Source of the DNA: a virus
Direction: 5' to 3' (one strand)
DNA length: 44,369 bases
Virus record (IMG/VR): IMGVR_UViG_3300047443_000093
Coordinates: 1-44,369 of that record
Of the stretch, positions 13,646 through 20,322 are shown in pieces; positions within the stretch are counted from its first letter, which is position 1, and the number at the start of each line of letters is the position of its first letter. A model generated the notes under the pieces. The model saw only the letters and a program-made list of their open reading frames with translations, made no database searches and had not been told where the DNA came from. Position numbers and translations under genes: made by a program.

Positions 13646-14844
13646 GTCAGGAAGCAACCATTCGGCGCGGCGTGCGCAATGCCCGCTACGCTGCCATCCC
13701 GAACCATGTCTTCGAAGACAGTCGGCTCTCCATGGAGGCACGATGGCTGTTGAGCTACTTGCTTTCGAAGCCTGACAATTGGACCGTCGTCATCGGCGAC
13801 ATCATCAAAAAGGGCAATTGCGGGCGCGACAAGGCCCGCAAGATGATCGCGGAGCTTGTCGAGTTTGGCTATGCGGAGCGCGAGCAGGTTCGCGAAGACG
13901 GCAAATTTGGGTCATCGGTTCTGGTGATCTTTGATGAGCCGAGCACAGGCAACGATGCCGGTAGCACCGCAGACGCGGAAAGTGTTGCATTTCTACCGCA
14001 GACGGATTTACCGGCGACGGCAGAACCGTCGCCGGTTTCGCCGTCGCCGGTAAAATCGGCACCTAGTAATAACTTAGATCTACCAAATACTGACTCCTAC
14101 CAAGCGAGCGCTGGCGCGGAAGAGGGAGGATTAGCGCGGTCTGATCGAAAGAAGATCGAGCGAGAGTTCACGCTCTGGTACGCGTCTTGGAAGAAAGGCG
14201 ACATCGGTTATGCCCGAAACGCATGGTTCGCCCTTTCGGACGATGATCGCGCCGAATGCATCGAGAAGACGCCCGCTTATCTGCGGTGGACTAAACCATC
14301 CGACCTGATGGCGGCTGCGGTATATCTCAAAAACCGCCATTGGCATGATGTGCCGGAGGAGGCGACGGCAACGCCGACGCGCGGCATTGCCAAGGTCTGC
14401 GGCAAGCTCTGGATGGGAACGCGGTTAGCTGCGCTTTCGAAGGAGCCTGAGGGCCGGATCATCTTCACGACGTTTGACGAGCGGGAGATTGCGGCTGGAC
14501 GGACCGCCAGGGAGTCGCTGGTGCAAAGCAAGCGCCTTGAGCATGGCTGGCCGCTGGTGACCACCATGCGCGATCTAGCGCGCCGCAAGGAGGCTTTCAT
14601 CACGTCTCTCGGTTTGCTGCCGATTGTTGCCGACTTTCAGGCAGTCTTTCGCGGTAGCCCGCTGATCGACGCATGGGCCGGGCTGCACCAGCGGCGGGGA
14701 TGGCCGTTCATCGAATTCGAGCCGGAGTGGTCTTACTTCCCGCCGATCGATCCTAACGAAAGCAACTTAGACCAGGCCGTCGAGGATGCATTGACGGCGT
14801 TTCTCTCCACAATCAGCGAGGCGGGCCATGACGATGCAGCATAA
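13642..14844 (+). CDS. phage replication initiator-like protein (winged helix)
   Basis: A 400-aa protein with an N-terminal winged-helix domain (residues 20-95; ARWLLSYLLSKPDNWTVVIG, then GRDKARKMIAELVEFGYAER) typical of phage O-type or RepA-type initiators. A Ser/Pro-rich linker (about 115-160) follows, then a conserved-looking C-terminal half with aromatic motifs (FTLWYASWKKGDIGYARNAW). The start ATG overlaps the stop of the cytosine methylase. The linker is encoded by an inverted and direct repeat cluster plus an AT-richer stretch, the place where lambda keeps its origin within gene O. The replication role is inferred from domain and position. Confidence 0.75.
   Translation: MSQEATIRRGVRNARYAAIPNHVFEDSRLSMEARWLLSYLLSKPDNWTVVIGDIIKKGNCGRDKARKMIAELVEFGYAEREQVREDGKFGSSVLVIFDEPSTGNDAGSTADAESVAFLPQTDLPATAEPSPVSPSPVKSAPSNNLDLPNTDSYQASAGAEEGGLARSDRKKIEREFTLWYASWKKGDIGYARNAWFALSDDDRAECIEKTPAYLRWTKPSDLMAAAVYLKNRHWHDVPEEATATPTRGIAKVCGKLWMGTRLAALSKEPEGRIIFTTFDEREIAAGRTARESLVQSKRLEHGWPLVTTMRDLARRKEAFITSLGLLPIVADFQAVFRGSPLIDAWAGLHQRRGWPFIEFEPEWSYFPPIDPNESNLDQAVEDALTAFLSTISEAGHDDAA
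14008..14053. other. candidate replication origin repeats within the initiator gene
   Basis: TTACCGGCGACGG (14008-14020) is mirrored by CCGTCGCCGGT at 14026-14036 and by CCGTCGCCGGTAA at 14041-14053. There are thus three copies of one 11-mer, one inverted. Directly downstream, 14051-14095 is AT-rich for this genome (stretches such as AGTAATAACTTAGATCT). Iterons next to an AT-rich zone inside the initiator gene match the lambda origin layout. Confidence 0.45.
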
Positions 14845-15517
14845 GCGTTACAGCATTGCGGGTGACCCGATCCAGATCCGTCAGTTTGCCAGCGACAAGC
14901 AGGATACAGCCATCACCCTGCATCGCATCCGCATTCGCGAGATCATCGCGGCGAGCAAGCGAATCGCTGACGAGAATCCAGAGCTGGCGGGCTGGTATTG
15001 TCTAACCGTTCTGACGAGCCGGGAATCAGTTGTGGAAAAAGCCTTGGAGCAGGACGCCGTAGAGTGCCTGTTATTGCGAGAGCCAGAGCAGAAGGTCATA
15101 CGGCGCGGCAGGGAATGGACGCTGCCTGGCAAGCTCTGGCTACCCGGCTTTACGCTGGTGCGTTGCGTCCCTTCAAACGAGGCTTTCCGTGGTTTGCTGG
15201 GTATTGGCAATGTGACGGGCATCGTCGGAGGATGGGCGCGGCCATACCGAGTGTCCAATGAATCAATCAGCAAGTTCAATGAGGTTATGCAGGAGCACGA
15301 AGGCGAGCGAGAGCGGAAGCGCCTTGAGCAGGAGGCCAAGAATGCGTCAATCAAGCAGGGCGACAAGGTGCGTATCCGCCTCGGTCCTTTCGGTGGATTC
15401 GAGGCTCGTGTCATCAATCGGCAGAAGGGCACCGGGAAGCGCTGCAAGGTCGAATACAAGCTATTCGGCAAAGTCGGGCAGGCCGACATCCCACTTGCGA
15501 ATCTCGAAAAGTTGTGA
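14828..15517 (+). CDS. NusG-family antitermination paralogue
   Basis: A 229-aa protein: an NGN-like domain (about residues 55-150, with WYCLTVLTSRESVVEKAL and LPGFTLVRC), a charged helical linker (EVMQEHEGERERKRLEQEAK), and a C-terminal KOW domain (IKQGDKVRIRLGPFGGFEAR through VGQADIPLANLEKL). This is the NusG/RfaH architecture, whose members bind RNA polymerase and suppress pausing or termination. It is the last early rightward gene, overlaps the initiator gene by 17 bases, and lies upstream of a structured RNA and the late genes. A dedicated late-gene antiterminator is the likely role. Confidence 0.88.
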   Translation: MTMQHKRYSIAGDPIQIRQFASDKQDTAITLHRIRIREIIAASKRIADENPELAGWYCLTVLTSRESVVEKALEQDAVECLLLREPEQKVIRRGREWTLPGKLWLPGFTLVRCVPSNEAFRGLLGIGNVTGIVGGWARPYRVSNESISKFNEVMQEHEGERERKRLEQEAKNASIKQGDKVRIRLGPFGGFEARVINRQKGTGKRCKVEYKLFGKVGQADIPLANLEKL

Positions 15518-15571
15518 GTACAAATCACCCCAACGGGATGATCTGCGATCTCTGTGCACCCTTGGGCAACA

Positions 15572-15677
15572 GCCCTGAATGCCTCGGCAGGACGCGAGGC
15601 AAAGAGAGGAAACTCTCAGGTCGGTAGCCGGGCAGACCCCGCCTTGAATGTCTCCTAGGGAGGCATCGATTCAGGGC
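15572..15677 (+). ncRNA. structured RNA candidate downstream of the NusG paralogue
   Basis: A perfect 9-bp closing stem, GCCCTGAAT (15572) with ATTCAGGGC (15669), encloses four helices. They are GCCTCG/CGAGGC (15581/15595), GAGAG-GAAA-CTCTC with a GNRA loop (15604-15617), GGTC/GACC (15619/15635), and ATGTCTCC/GGAGGCAT with a 3-nt loop (15648-15666). A smaller hairpin (ATCA-C-CCC, loop AAC, GGG-A-TGAT) lies at 15524-15543. No coding frame covers it. The GAAA loop favours the plus strand. I do not recognise the class. It could be the RNA target of the NusG paralogue, a put- or dfn-like antiterminator, or a phage small RNA. Confidence 0.6.
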
Positions 15678-15688
15678 CAATGCGCAAG

Positions 15689-15877
15689 CTATGACTTCTT
15701 TATCGCCTCAGCTAATTTGTTCGCCTTCTCGCGGCTCGGTCCCGCCTTCTTGATGACCTTCTCGGCGTCGGTGAGCGAAAGACCATGCTTTCTCGCGAAG
15801 TACCTTAGCTCGTAAGTCTCACCGGCTGAAACGAGCTTGCTATCAGCGGCCTTCTTCTTCTTGTCGTCTCCCATCAT
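15689..15877 (-). CDS. DUF3606 family small protein
   Basis: A 62-aa protein with a Lys-rich start and the DUF3606 core (YELRYFARKHGLSLTDAEKV followed by KKAGPSREKANKLAE). The family is common in Rhizobiales and may be a small nucleic-acid-binding helical protein; no function is established. It is the only reverse gene between the early and late blocks and has GGAGGA before its start. It is convergent with the NusG paralogue. Confidence 0.85.
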   Translation of the reverse strand: MMGDDKKKKAADSKLVSAGETYELRYFARKHGLSLTDAEKVIKKAGPSREKANKLAEAIKKS

Positions 15878-15934: not shown

Positions 15935-16318
15935 TTGGTTGTTAAGCCCAAATCATTCCGCCTTCGTGGCACGCCAACCAGCCAGCAGCGGGAGCGCGAG
16001 TACGATCGCGAGCGTGATCAGCAGCCTTGGCGCAAATGGTACAAGACAGCCCGTTGGCAATGCGAGCGCGCTGACTTCCTCGCTCAGCCCGACAACCAAT
16101 TCTGCAGGCGATGCGAGGAAGTCGGCCTGCTGAATGCCGGTCACCTGACGATTCACGGCGAGCTGCAGACGAACAGCCGCCGCATGCATCTGGTGGTCGA
16201 CCACAAGAGGCGCCATCGCGGCAACCCGGTACTGTTCTGGGACCGATCGAATTGGCAACCCCTCTGCCCTGACCACCATGACATCGTGAAGCAATCCGAA
16301 GAGAAGGTAGCAAGATGA
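15935..16318 (+). CDS. HNH endonuclease next to terminase
   Basis: A 127-aa protein. The HNH fold is marked by FCRRCEEVGLLNAGHLTIHG, the HLVVDHKRRHRG stretch and WQPLCPDHHDIV, with paired Cys-x-x-Cys/His ligands. In HK97-like phages a small HNH nuclease beside TerS assists the terminase in cos cleavage, and this placement fits. No ATG start exists in frame; TTG 15935 with AAAAGG upstream is the best choice. It overlaps the next gene by ATGA. Confidence 0.85.
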   Translation: MVVKPKSFRLRGTPTSQQREREYDRERDQQPWRKWYKTARWQCERADFLAQPDNQFCRRCEEVGLLNAGHLTIHGELQTNSRRMHLVVDHKRRHRGNPVLFWDRSNWQPLCPDHHDIVKQSEEKVAR

Positions 16319-16737: not shown

Positions 16738-17355
16738 ATGGCACGAGGTCGCAAGCCCGACACGGCAGAGCAACAGGCTGCAAAAGGTGCGCCGGGAAAG
16801 CGCATGACACCGCAGGAAGCGCAGAAGATCCGCGAGCCGAAGGCGCCGACACCTGTCGTGGTCGGCAAGGTTCGGCCGCCGAAGTGGCTCAAGCGCAGCC
16901 GCAAGGCAACTGAGATCTGGAATGATCTCGCGCCGAAGCTTGAGCGGCTGAACCTGCTGAACGATCTCGATGCTACTCCGTTGTCGCGGTACTGCCGCTA
17001 CATCGTCGAGTGGATCGCCGCCGATATCACCGTCCAGAAAGAAGGGACGTGGTTCGAAGCGAAAGACACGAACGGCAACCTTACGAAAAAGCGCCATCCG
17101 GCTTGGCAGGCATGTCAGGACATCGAAAAGATGCTGCGCGACCTTGAGGCGACTTTTGGCATGCGTCCGGATGCCCGATACAAGATCATGCGCGACCAGG
17201 CGGCCGCCCATGGCCTCGGCAACCTGCCGCTTTGGGGCGATCAGCAGCCTACGGTCGGCGAAAAGTCGTCTGCGCCAGAGCCTGAAGCGGGTCAGCAGGA
17301 CGTTATGGGCCTCCTGAAATCCTTCGATTCCGCACCGCCAAGCCGTCCGAACTGA
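16738..17355 (+). CDS. terS: terminase small subunit, P27 family
   Basis: A 205-aa DNA-recognition subunit of the packaging motor. It begins with the family's typical ARGRKPDTAEQQAAKGAPGK followed by a Pro-rich linker. The helical core has WLKRSRKATEIWNDLAPKLE, then the LNLLNDLDATPLSRYC stretch and the conserved WQACQDIEKMLRDLEATFGM. The start at 16738 is set by GGAGGG; a longer frame is unsupported. It sits three bases ahead of the large subunit gene. Confidence 0.92.
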   Translation: MARGRKPDTAEQQAAKGAPGKRMTPQEAQKIREPKAPTPVVVGKVRPPKWLKRSRKATEIWNDLAPKLERLNLLNDLDATPLSRYCRYIVEWIAADITVQKEGTWFEAKDTNGNLTKKRHPAWQACQDIEKMLRDLEATFGMRPDARYKIMRDQAAAHGLGNLPLWGDQQPTVGEKSSAPEPEAGQQDVMGLLKSFDSAPPSRPN

Positions 17356-17358
17356 CAT

Positions 17359-19098
17359 ATGGACGGCGTATCGACGGCGGCAATTCAGGCTTCTGCCGGC
17401 GCGCAGCTGTGGGCCGAACCGGAATGGATCACGGAGGCGGCCGACAATCGGGGCTGGGAGTGGGCACGCATCGCCTGGCGCCGGTGCTGCGGCGTAGCCG
17501 GTGCATGGTTCGACTATGCCAAGGCCGACGCGGCGGTAAAGCTCTTTCCGACGATCTTCCGCCTGACGGAGGATCGTTTCGCCGGCAAGCCATTCCGTCT
17601 TGGCCTCTGGCAGGAAATCATCGTTCGCCTGCTCGTTGGCTGGAAGGCGCCTAACGAGATTATCGACGAGCAGACCGGCGAGCCAATCGTTGTTCACGTT
17701 CGGATCTTCCGGCGTCTCATGCTCTGGGTGCCGCGTAAGAATGGCAAATCCGAGTTTCTGGCGGCGTTGTCGCTGCTGTTCTTCATCCTTGATGGCGTTG
17801 TCGGCGGTCAGGGGTTTGTGTTCGCCAGAGACGAGAACCAAGCCAAGATCATCTTCAACAAGATGAAGGCTATGATCAGCATGGCGCCGCAGCTCGGCGA
17901 CACGCAGATGTTCAAGAAGTCGATCTACCTTCCAAAAATCCACGCGCTGTTTGAGCTGCTGTCGGGAAAGCCGGAAGGCAAGCACGGCAAATCGCCGACC
18001 GTCATCACCGGCGACGAAATGCACGAATGGGAAACGCCGGATTTGGCGAATTTCCTGCGGCAAGGTACTGGCGCACGACTAGAGCCGATCGAACTGTATG
18101 CTTCCACGGCTGGTCTGAAGTCGAATAAGACTGGATATTCTCTCTGGGAAGAAAGCCAGTCCATACTTGACGGACGGATCGAAGATCCTTCGACGTTGGT
18201 CGTCATTTTCGCACTCGATCCTGACGACGATTGGTCGGATGAGGCTAACTGGCACAAGGCAAACCCGTCGCTGGGTATATCGCCGACTGTTCAGTTCCTG
18301 CGGCGCGAAGCGGCAATTGCCAAGGATAACCCGCGCGCTGAACAGCATTTCCGCTGCTACCACGCGAACCAGTGGATCGATGCGGTCACGCGCTGGCTGA
18401 ATATGAAGAAATGGGATGCCTGCGCCGCCGACAAGCAAGCGTGGAAGAGTTGGCGGGACGGTGAGGGTCTTAAACGGCGGAAATGTTTTGCTGCTTTTGA
18501 CGTGTCGTCCAACGAAGACATCACGGCCAAGATATTGGCGTTTCCGCCGGATAGTGAGTTTACGAAATGGATACTGGCAGCTCGCTTTTGGGTGCCGGAA
18601 GACACCGTCTCACGCCGGACGAAGCAGGACCGCATATCCTATGACGCGTGGGTCAAAATGGGAGCTCTTGAGGTTACCCCTGGCGACTACGTCGATCAGG
18701 ACTACGTAAAGAAATCCCTCGCTGAGGACATGAAGAACTTCGACGTTTCGCTGATCGGCTACGATCCATGGAACGCAACGAAGCTCATCACGGACATGCA
18801 GAAGGATGGCGTCGACGAAGAGCGTTTCCAGCTCATGCGTCAGGGTATTCAAACGCTCGGCGAGCCGACGAAGATGGTCGAACGTCTCATCATGGCAGGT
18901 GATCTCGACCATGGTGGCCATCCTGTTCTGGCTTGGATGGCAAAAAACACCGCCATCCGCTTCGACGAAAATCTGAACTACGCGCCGACGAAGAAGAAAA
19001 GCGCCGAAAAGATCGACGGTATCGTCGCCAGCATCATGGCGGTGGGCCTGTCGATGGCCGGCGATGTGGTCGAAAAATCATTCTGGGAGTCGGCATAG
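17359..19098 (+). CDS. terL: terminase large subunit (ATPase/nuclease)
   Basis: A 579-aa Terminase_1 family motor that cuts and pumps DNA into the prohead. The ATPase part has WVPRKNGKSEF as Walker A (about 123-133) and VITGDEMHEW as Walker B (215-224). The C-terminal RNase H-like nuclease has CFAAFDVSSNEDIT, IGYDPWNATKLI and a late Asp in KIDGIVASIMA. Length is normal for HK97-like TerL. The portal gene starts on the base after its stop. Confidence 0.96.
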   Translation: MDGVSTAAIQASAGAQLWAEPEWITEAADNRGWEWARIAWRRCCGVAGAWFDYAKADAAVKLFPTIFRLTEDRFAGKPFRLGLWQEIIVRLLVGWKAPNEIIDEQTGEPIVVHVRIFRRLMLWVPRKNGKSEFLAALSLLFFILDGVVGGQGFVFARDENQAKIIFNKMKAMISMAPQLGDTQMFKKSIYLPKIHALFELLSGKPEGKHGKSPTVITGDEMHEWETPDLANFLRQGTGARLEPIELYASTAGLKSNKTGYSLWEESQSILDGRIEDPSTLVVIFALDPDDDWSDEANWHKANPSLGISPTVQFLRREAAIAKDNPRAEQHFRCYHANQWIDAVTRWLNMKKWDACAADKQAWKSWRDGEGLKRRKCFAAFDVSSNEDITAKILAFPPDSEFTKWILAARFWVPEDTVSRRTKQDRISYDAWVKMGALEVTPGDYVDQDYVKKSLAEDMKNFDVSLIGYDPWNATKLITDMQKDGVDEERFQLMRQGIQTLGEPTKMVERLIMAGDLDHGGHPVLAWMAKNTAIRFDENLNYAPTKKKSAEKIDGIVASIMAVGLSMAGDVVEKSFWESA

Positions 19099-20322
19099 AT
19101 GGGGCTTTGGTCAAAATTATTCGGGCGTGAGGCGAAAAACTCCACGCTTGAGTTATTTCGCGAAATCTACGGCGGCCGTCAAAGCTCGTCGGGCGCCACC
19201 GTAAATGTCGAAACGGCCCTTGAAACCTCGACCGTGTTTTCGATTTGCCGGGTGCTTGCCGATGGTGTGGCGCAGGTGCCATTCCGGCTTTACCAGACGG
19301 ATGGCCTGAGCAGGATGATTGCGACCGATCACCCGCTGAATATGTTGATCAATCGTCGACCAAATCGCTGGCAGACGAGCTTCGAATTCCGCGAAACTAT
19401 GATGTTTCATCTGGTTTTGACCGGAAATTTCTTCTCGTACATCAATCGAGTTGGACGCAATCGCACGATCAAGGAGCTGATTCCCTTGATGCCCGGCGAT
19501 GTCGAGGTCTGCCGACTGCCGGATATGACGATCGAATACCGCGTCCGTGGTCCGGATGGGTCTACTCAGACTTTTCACCAGGGCGACATCTGGCATGTGC
19601 GTGGCCCTTCGTGGAATGGATGGCGCGGACTCGACGCGGTAAAATACGCCAGAAACGCCATCGGTCTTTCGATGGCGCTCGAAACGGCGCACGCGAACCT
19701 GCACAAGTATGGTTCGCAAACATCCGGCCTGCTTTCAGTGGAAGGAAATCTGGGTCCGGAACGCTATAAGGAACTGGCCGAGTGGCTTGATCAATATTCC
19801 ATCGGAGGCGCCCGCTACCAGAAGCCAATGCTTCTGGATAAAGCCGCCAAATGGATGACTATGGCAATGACTGGCGTCGATAGCCAGCATCTTGAGACGC
19901 GCCGCTTTCAGCTCGAGGAACTTTGCCGTGGCGCGCGGGTCATGCCGATCATGGTTGGCCATAGCGACAAGACGGCGGCCTATGCCAGCTCTGAACAGAT
20001 GTTCCTCGCCCATGTCGTTCACTCTCTTTCGCCCTGGTATGAGCGCATTGAGCAGTCGGCCGACGTTTTTCTGCTCACGGACGATGAGCTGCGGCAGGGC
20101 TACTACACCAAATTCACGTCGAATGGCCTAATGCGCGGCGCTGCTGATGCGCGCGCCAATTTCTATGCGAAGGCGCTCGGCTCAGGCGGGACCAAGGGAT
20201 GGATGACCCAGAACGAAGTCCGCGACAGCGAAGATATGGATCGCAGCGACGATCCGGAGGCCGACAAGCTTCCGCAGCCCACCGCGAAACCCCAGCAGAC
20301 CACGGAGCCGCCAAATGCATGA
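19099..20322 (+). CDS. portal protein, HK97 family
   Basis: A 407-aa ring-forming portal at the capsid vertex through which DNA enters. Family landmarks are VFSICRVLADGVAQVPFRLY near residue 45, a TDHPLNMLINRRPNRWQT segment, the WHVRGPSWNGWRGLDAV motif, and the C-terminal YFTNGLMRGA-like region (KFTSNGLMRGAADARANFYA). The disordered Pro/Gln tail is typical. It overlaps the protease gene by eight bases. Confidence 0.95.
   Translation: MGLWSKLFGREAKNSTLELFREIYGGRQSSSGATVNVETALETSTVFSICRVLADGVAQVPFRLYQTDGLSRMIATDHPLNMLINRRPNRWQTSFEFRETMMFHLVLTGNFFSYINRVGRNRTIKELIPLMPGDVEVCRLPDMTIEYRVRGPDGSTQTFHQGDIWHVRGPSWNGWRGLDAVKYARNAIGLSMALETAHANLHKYGSQTSGLLSVEGNLGPERYKELAEWLDQYSIGGARYQKPMLLDKAAKWMTMAMTGVDSQHLETRRFQLEELCRGARVMPIMVGHSDKTAAYASSEQMFLAHVVHSLSPWYERIEQSADVFLLTDDELRQGYYTKFTSNGLMRGAADARANFYAKALGSGGTKGWMTQNEVRDSEDMDRSDDPEADKLPQPTAKPQQTTEPPNA

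Follow-up and report, generated by a model that had tools for sequence, protein, structure and literature searches.

The 44,369-nucleotide stretch of viral DNA analysed here (IMG/VR record IMGVR_UViG_3300047443_000093, hereafter the window) encodes, at positions 15536-15693, what comparative sequence evidence identifies as a real structured RNA, an outcome that confirms in substance the preliminary description of a multi-helix RNA behind a phage NusG paralogue. We consider it probable that this element is a cis-acting antitermination leader RNA, which would work together with the NusG paralogue encoded directly upstream. Judged against Rfam, in which the "Rhizobiales-1" motif (Weinberg 2010) carries no number, it represents a new RNA family. 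Neither the window nor eight homologous loci yielded a family at the gathering threshold, which upholds the earlier remark that the RNA matched no known family and might constitute a new class. The literature searched, from which subscription literature was mostly absent such that an earlier description is possible, contained nothing linking a phage NusG to an RNA. That on rhizobial phages contained nothing on NusG, antitermination or RNA, and the main texts of papers on phi3LM21/phi2LM21 and of those discussing vB_MseS-P1 mention neither NusG nor antitermination.

Homologues and fold of the element

The NusG-like gene, the element and its parts are as follows.

14828-15517, + strand: NusG-like paralogue, putative protein partner (NGN and KOW domains, N-terminal helical extension)
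15536-15693, + strand: whole conserved RNA element, GGAUGA box to end of P8 (144 unique homologues listed; covariation, 58 sequences)
15536-15541, + strand: GGAYGA box, 5' flank of P1, with CCC at 15637-15639 as 3' flank (alignments; most divergent paralogue loci)
15542-15546, + strand: P1 5' arm UCUGC (100% paired, both-sided changes in 5/5 pairs)
15632-15636, + strand: P1 3' arm GCAGA (100% paired, both-sided changes in 5/5 pairs)
15552-15557, + strand: P2 5' arm CUG-U-GC, with 3' arm 15627-15631 (95% paired, 2/6 pairs both-sided)
15560-15562, + strand: P3 5' arm CCU, with 3' arm AGG at 15618-15620 (96.5% paired, 2/3 pairs both-sided)
15564-15575, + strand: optional hairpin GGGC-AACA-GCCC of the window's subtype (loops AACA, AAUA, GAUA or UUCG in close relatives)
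15580-15601, + strand: P4, variable hairpin (from sequence; seen in relatives, poorly aligned)
15604-15617, + strand: P5, GNRA-capped hairpin GAGAG-GAAA-CUCUC (96% paired, 4/4 pairs both-sided)
15641-15677, + strand: P6 (15641-15648/15670-15677) enclosing P7 (15650-15655/15659-15664) (covariation, compensations)
15678-15693, + strand: P8, sequence-conserved hairpin CAAUGC-GCAA-GCUAUG, loops GNNA or UACA/UACU (pattern-found and model-found loci)

A DNA search located the element in Sinorhizobium phage phi3LM21, where it follows the NusG-like gene, and in a further two phage records. A 26-letter pattern from the conserved 3' part, derived from an alignment of the first phage elements, matched at least 120 viral-contig stretches and 51 stretches of bacterial genomes, whose titles name Rhizobium, Agrobacterium, Ensifer, Shinella, Brucella, Mesorhizobium and other Rhizobiales; the viral and bacterial pattern matches listed comprise at least 144 unique elements. 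Because the search pattern could bias any association with NusG, covariance models were built for the 3' domain (R1) and for the whole element of the main type (R2). R1 matched 18 of 200 genomes in the family of the Shinella genome, and in 385 genomes of the class outside that family it gave only two weak matches without a NusG-like ORF; such matches (L196 and L197, one with only 37 nt) were discarded as chance. Each phage genome carries one element at E<=0.01 in the model search, located, where genes are annotated, between those for NusG and terminase. One Martelella genome harbours three distinct NusG-element modules (loci L193, L195 and L214), and several related prophages thus seem to coexist there. 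Nostoc phage Nsp-JY10 (PP395642) has a NusG, an RNA element and a gene order of the Rhizobiales type, so its assignment to a Nostoc host may be wrong, the true host perhaps being a rhizobial companion in the culture.

In the proposed structure, P1 closes a 5' domain of several helices, after which come P6-P7 and then the small hairpin P8. The preliminary description had named a covariation search as the way to check its fold, and the result is strong, with P1, P3, P5, P6 and P7 all covarying. Across 58 main-type elements the structure is 89.0% paired, with both-sided changes in 21 of 37 pairs, including every pair of P7. The covariation score is 0.300 against 0.147 +/- 0.006 for shuffles (0/500 reach it) and at most 0.131 for slid alignments, counts that are not probabilities since the shuffles do not keep relatedness. 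The 3' domain, in 101 sequences, is 92% paired (102 both-sided cells versus 38), and 41 model-found sequences, which are less biased by the pattern, have both-sided changes in 10 of 16 pairs (62 cells versus 18) and supply new compensations in P6, such as CCGUGA/UCACGG (L204) and CCUUA/UAAGG (L195). A crude test of P1 in 42 elements of other types found 27 good helices, where 500 permutations averaged 7.8 and never exceeded 15. An artefact is unlikely in view of the slid controls and of how varied the compensations are, and the G-U intermediates seen in P1, P2 and P6 suit an RNA of the + strand, on which nusG and the late genes also run. P4, being poorly aligned, gained no support in the 58-sequence test, and the CUG and CGG of P2 are lost together in Brucella-type elements. 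The main type also presents CGGUA at 15622-15626, with a near-invariant unpaired GGUA between P3 and P2, which we take to resemble the RfaH ops core and which could be a pause or loading signal.

P8 is near-invariant in sequence (CAGUGC-GNNA/UACA-GCUAUG), a conservation partly ascertained by the search pattern; at model-found loci the inner GUGC...GCUAU is highly conserved and the outer pairs vary. Its loops are mostly of GNRA type, with UACA in 16 of 99, and GCAA, GUAA, GAAA, UACA and GACA are among those seen. Loop type was considered as a code for NusG clade and rejected, as UACA loops recur in several clades and leave no clear code, a point that weighs against the antitermination leader.

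The preliminary description had centred on a perfect 9-bp closing stem. The complementarity itself stands, as GCCCUGAAU (15572-15580) pairs perfectly with AUUCAGGGC (15669-15677), but conservation of the stem does not: it is 67.5% paired in relatives against 67.1% in shuffles, and with a single both-sided change in 58 homologues it is rejected by covariation. Single-sequence folding prefers this stem (-65.6 versus -61.6 kcal/mol for the comparative structure), and its place in a minimum 4 kcal/mol below the comparative structure explains the earlier error. Its 3' arm instead pairs with 15641-15648 to form P6, and it is P1 that closes the 5' domain. Of the four further helices then described, one with a GNRA loop, the GAAA-capped hairpin at 15604-15617 and other helices remain, while the details of the fold do not. 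The stretch 15518-15688 folds better than 200/200 dinucleotide shuffles (z=-2.99), which by itself is weak evidence for a structured RNA.

The NusG paralogue and its linkage to the RNA

The gene that the element follows ends in a stop codon at 15515-15517, and its product matches Pfam NusG (E=1.3e-9) and phrog_6386, "transcription antiterminator" (E=5e-32), in accord with its earlier identification as NusG-like. A sequence profile of the paralogue aligns to NusG positions 47-217, and its AlphaFold model (pLDDT 89) comprises a helical N-terminal extension, an NGN domain and a KOW barrel. The nearest folds retrieved were NusG, RfaH and the NusG-RNA complex 8f5g, among which neither profile nor fold searches made any stand out as a special sister. 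We propose that this paralogue binds its adjoining RNA.

A link between the RNA and the NusG-like gene, upon which the initial idea depended, is seen at every locus where it could be assessed. Among the matches listed, a NusG-like ORF lies upstream in 136 of 136 elements with enough upstream DNA, ending 112-208 nt before the element's end (8 further elements, with less than 230 nt of upstream DNA, fall outside this count), and the same arrangement holds for 27/27 accepted R1 matches in Rhizobiales genomes. Housekeeping NusG loci (L013, L014) lack the element and continue, as read from the sequence, into an rplK-like start. A single-protein genome scan gave no match. The reverse search, of one phage NusG protein against 200 genomes, returned 33 matches, of which 19 carry the R1 domain; P6-P8 is missing at the other 14, which counts against an antitermination leader. 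Most of the examined NusG matches without R1 retain just a P1-like helix, immediately after the stop codon of nusG. Of 12 divergent loci, which include L010 and L011 from a plasmid search (L010 carrying R1 as well), 9 show by a strict rule a 5-bp helix flanked by a GGAYGA- or GGCCAC-like box at one end and by (A)CCC at the other. The arms of these helices differ and yet remain complementary (GCCGA/UCGGC, CCUGA/UCAGG, CCUGU/ACAGG, UGCCG/CGGCA, UUCGG/CCGAA). Since the divergent loci keep this helix, P1 appears to be the most general part of the element, with P6-P8 belonging to the larger subset. Three genomes (L230, L231, L232) share near-identical NusG paralogues and a P1-like RNA followed by 3' sequence that differs between them; these are possibly remnants, or another mobile element with the same module.

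Terminators and the late operon

The genes downstream of the element in the window are listed here.

15689-15877, - strand: DUF3606 gene, where relatives have the terminator (Pfam DUF3606, E=2e-7)
15935-16318, + strand: HNH endonuclease, first gene of the downstream operon (PHROG HNH matches, E=1e-15)
16738-17355, + strand: terminase small subunit, TerS (Pfam Terminase_4, E=6e-19)
17359-19098, + strand: terminase large subunit, TerL (Pfam TerL_nuclease, TerL_ATPase)
19099-20322: portal (Pfam Phage_portal)

At the left end of the window, a tRNA-Phe (53-128) lies beside an integrase gene (244-1317, - strand), suggesting a prophage integrated at tRNA-Phe.

Among the matches listed, a terminator-like hairpin with a U-run follows the RNA by a strict rule in 72 of 98 non-redundant loci, where upstream controls lead one to expect about 8, and in 70 of those 72 it lies 8-26 nt past P8; about a dozen more of the 98 have a weaker U-run by eye. 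An adjacent terminator is lacking in about 14 of the 98 listed loci and in the window, and hence it is not indispensable. At loci of this kind other genes have been inserted, or HNH follows the RNA without a break. At one locus a tRNA-Met (L138:4494-4570) occupies the terminator position. In the window, where the strict rule finds no intrinsic terminator on the + strand after the element, the terminator has been lost to the DUF3606 gene. The region had been described as gene-free, which is true of most of it but not of its 3' end, overlapped by the DUF3606 stop codon on the minus strand; this codon lies antisense inside P8. Across relatives the terminator sequences are exchanged (GGCGGCC.., AGCCCGG.., GAGCGCC..) and the element stays constant, for which reason a conserved terminator-antiterminator pairing was rejected, and the RNA is unlikely to exert control by pairing alternatively with the terminator. 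The next gene's ATG follows the terminator at a median distance of 12 nt (73 loci), which leaves no room for a promoter, so that transcription of the late operon's first gene is expected to rely on upstream readthrough. No sigma-70-like promoter was found near the element by consensus, a consensus that covers alphaproteobacterial promoters poorly.

The position of the element, after nusG and usually before a terminator and the packaging and structural genes, suggests that protein and RNA together form a late-gene switch. In the mechanism that we propose, early transcription would cross nusG and the RNA and, in most relatives, halt at the intrinsic terminator behind it. Once accumulated, the NusG paralogue would be loaded onto RNA polymerase via the nascent RNA, with hairpin P8 and the GGAYGA/P1/CCC motif that nearly all relatives possess as candidate contacts, and the modified polymerase would then read through into HNH, terminase, portal and other late genes. 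The conserved RNA fold, the NusG linkage, the terminator, the gene order and the absence of promoter space support this scheme, from which we infer the RNA-protein binding, the antitermination and its timing. The terminator and the missing promoter space likewise strengthen the original idea that the RNA recruits the paralogue and licenses late transcription. Against the scheme, P8 is so near the terminator that loading of the paralogue would have to be fast.

A small RNA or a 3' UTR would have the same anatomy, in which an intrinsic terminator comes after a conserved RNA. The element might thus act in trans, stabilise the nusG mRNA or feed back on NusG production, with late genes served by another promoter, and its constant place behind nusG could reflect such a 3'-UTR role instead of protein recognition. 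We regard this as fairly unlikely, given that the next gene begins a median of 12 nt past the terminator and that the RNA persists where terminators have been exchanged or lost, which shows it not to be tied to one 3' end. Somewhat less likely still is that the transcript itself renders RNA polymerase resistant to terminators by modifying it in cis, with the NusG paralogue separate or merely assisting. The put RNAs of phage HK022 act in this way, in cis on RNA polymerase and with no need of a phage protein, and occur as two copies near early promoters. A large structured RNA with GNRA-type loops that ends 8-26 nt before the terminator stem would suit immediate action in cis, but the complete linkage to NusG is unexpected if the RNA suffices, and it is present once, on the late side. 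The location just upstream of HNH-TerS-TerL, with two phage records opened near TerS, could also mark a packaging element, be it a cos/pac site in the DNA or an RNA of the packaging motor, and HNH nucleases beside terminases often belong to cos packaging. This we hold to be very improbable: a covarying multi-helix structure of the + strand with G-U intermediates, the NusG linkage and the terminator all indicate a transcribed RNA, HNH and often further genes separate the element from TerS, and a motor with a phi29-type pRNA is at odds with a TerS/TerL pair. The single-sequence z of only about -3 and the unconserved 9-bp stem would suit a chance fold with no real feature, a notion rendered negligible by at least 144 unique homologues, in which most helices show compensatory changes at a level that neither shuffled nor slid controls reach.

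If the antitermination leader is real, it would account for the control of late genes in a group of temperate rhizobial phages, for which we found no described late regulator, and provide a new orthogonal antitermination module for alphaproteobacteria.

Comparison with known systems

Like the put RNAs of HK022, the element is a phage RNA proposed to antiterminate in cis; unlike them it occurs in one copy after nusG (E<=0.01), strictly tied to the NusG paralogue. The lambda nut boxA sequence CTCTTT occurs in 0/101 elements by a simple pattern, and we claim membership of neither the put nor the nut class. With RfaH and ops it shares a specialised NusG paralogue and a nucleic-acid signal in the leader, recruitment being here a proposal, but the ops signal is DNA, a short stretch of the non-template strand at a pause (PMC7819879), whereas the present one is a covarying RNA.

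The correspondence with LoaP and the dfn/mln leader hairpin of Bacillus is closer. LoaP promotes readthrough of hairpin terminators and needs an RNA hairpin for readthrough of the leader terminator (PMC12691694), and a 2025 paper described it as the sole NusG-like protein for which specific association with an RNA element is known (PMC12691694). Common to both are a NusG-family paralogue with NGN and KOW domains, a structured leader RNA, an intrinsic terminator (72/98 relatives listed; absent in the window) and a long operon. They differ in that dfn is a small UNCG-type hairpin of a biosynthetic operon, while here an RNA of ~160 nt and many helices, with P8 loops of GNNA or UACA, is encoded beside its presumed protein partner in a phage. 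The element contains no conserved UNCG-type hairpin, UUCG being limited to the optional hairpin of a few relatives, and for that reason we do not claim membership of the LoaP/dfn class. Were the proposal true, it would add a second protein-RNA pair after LoaP, naturally present in well over a hundred phages and prophages, and the adjacency of protein and RNA in many natural variants would offer a compact system for studying RNA-guided loading of NusG paralogues.

In its layout the locus resembles Q-pR'-6S-tR' of lambda, with a regulator gene, a non-coding leader of ~200 nt, a terminator and late genes. In lambda the regulator licenses readthrough, and the same may apply in rhizobial phages. 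Q is loaded via a DNA element at a sigma-dependent pause (PMC7171158) and is not a NusG homologue, whereas here we find a NusG paralogue with a conserved RNA and have identified no late promoter. Whether the NusG paralogue has replaced Q throughout this Rhizobiales phage group, with the ~160-nt RNA as a dedicated loading platform and hence as a second, structurally unrelated case of an RNA-specific bacterial NusG-family protein after LoaP and the first in phages, we would put at about even chances. The layout equals that of lambda Q, 6S, tR' and late genes, with a NusG paralogue standing in for Q, and, with rather greater confidence, we consider that it probably works in the manner of LoaP.
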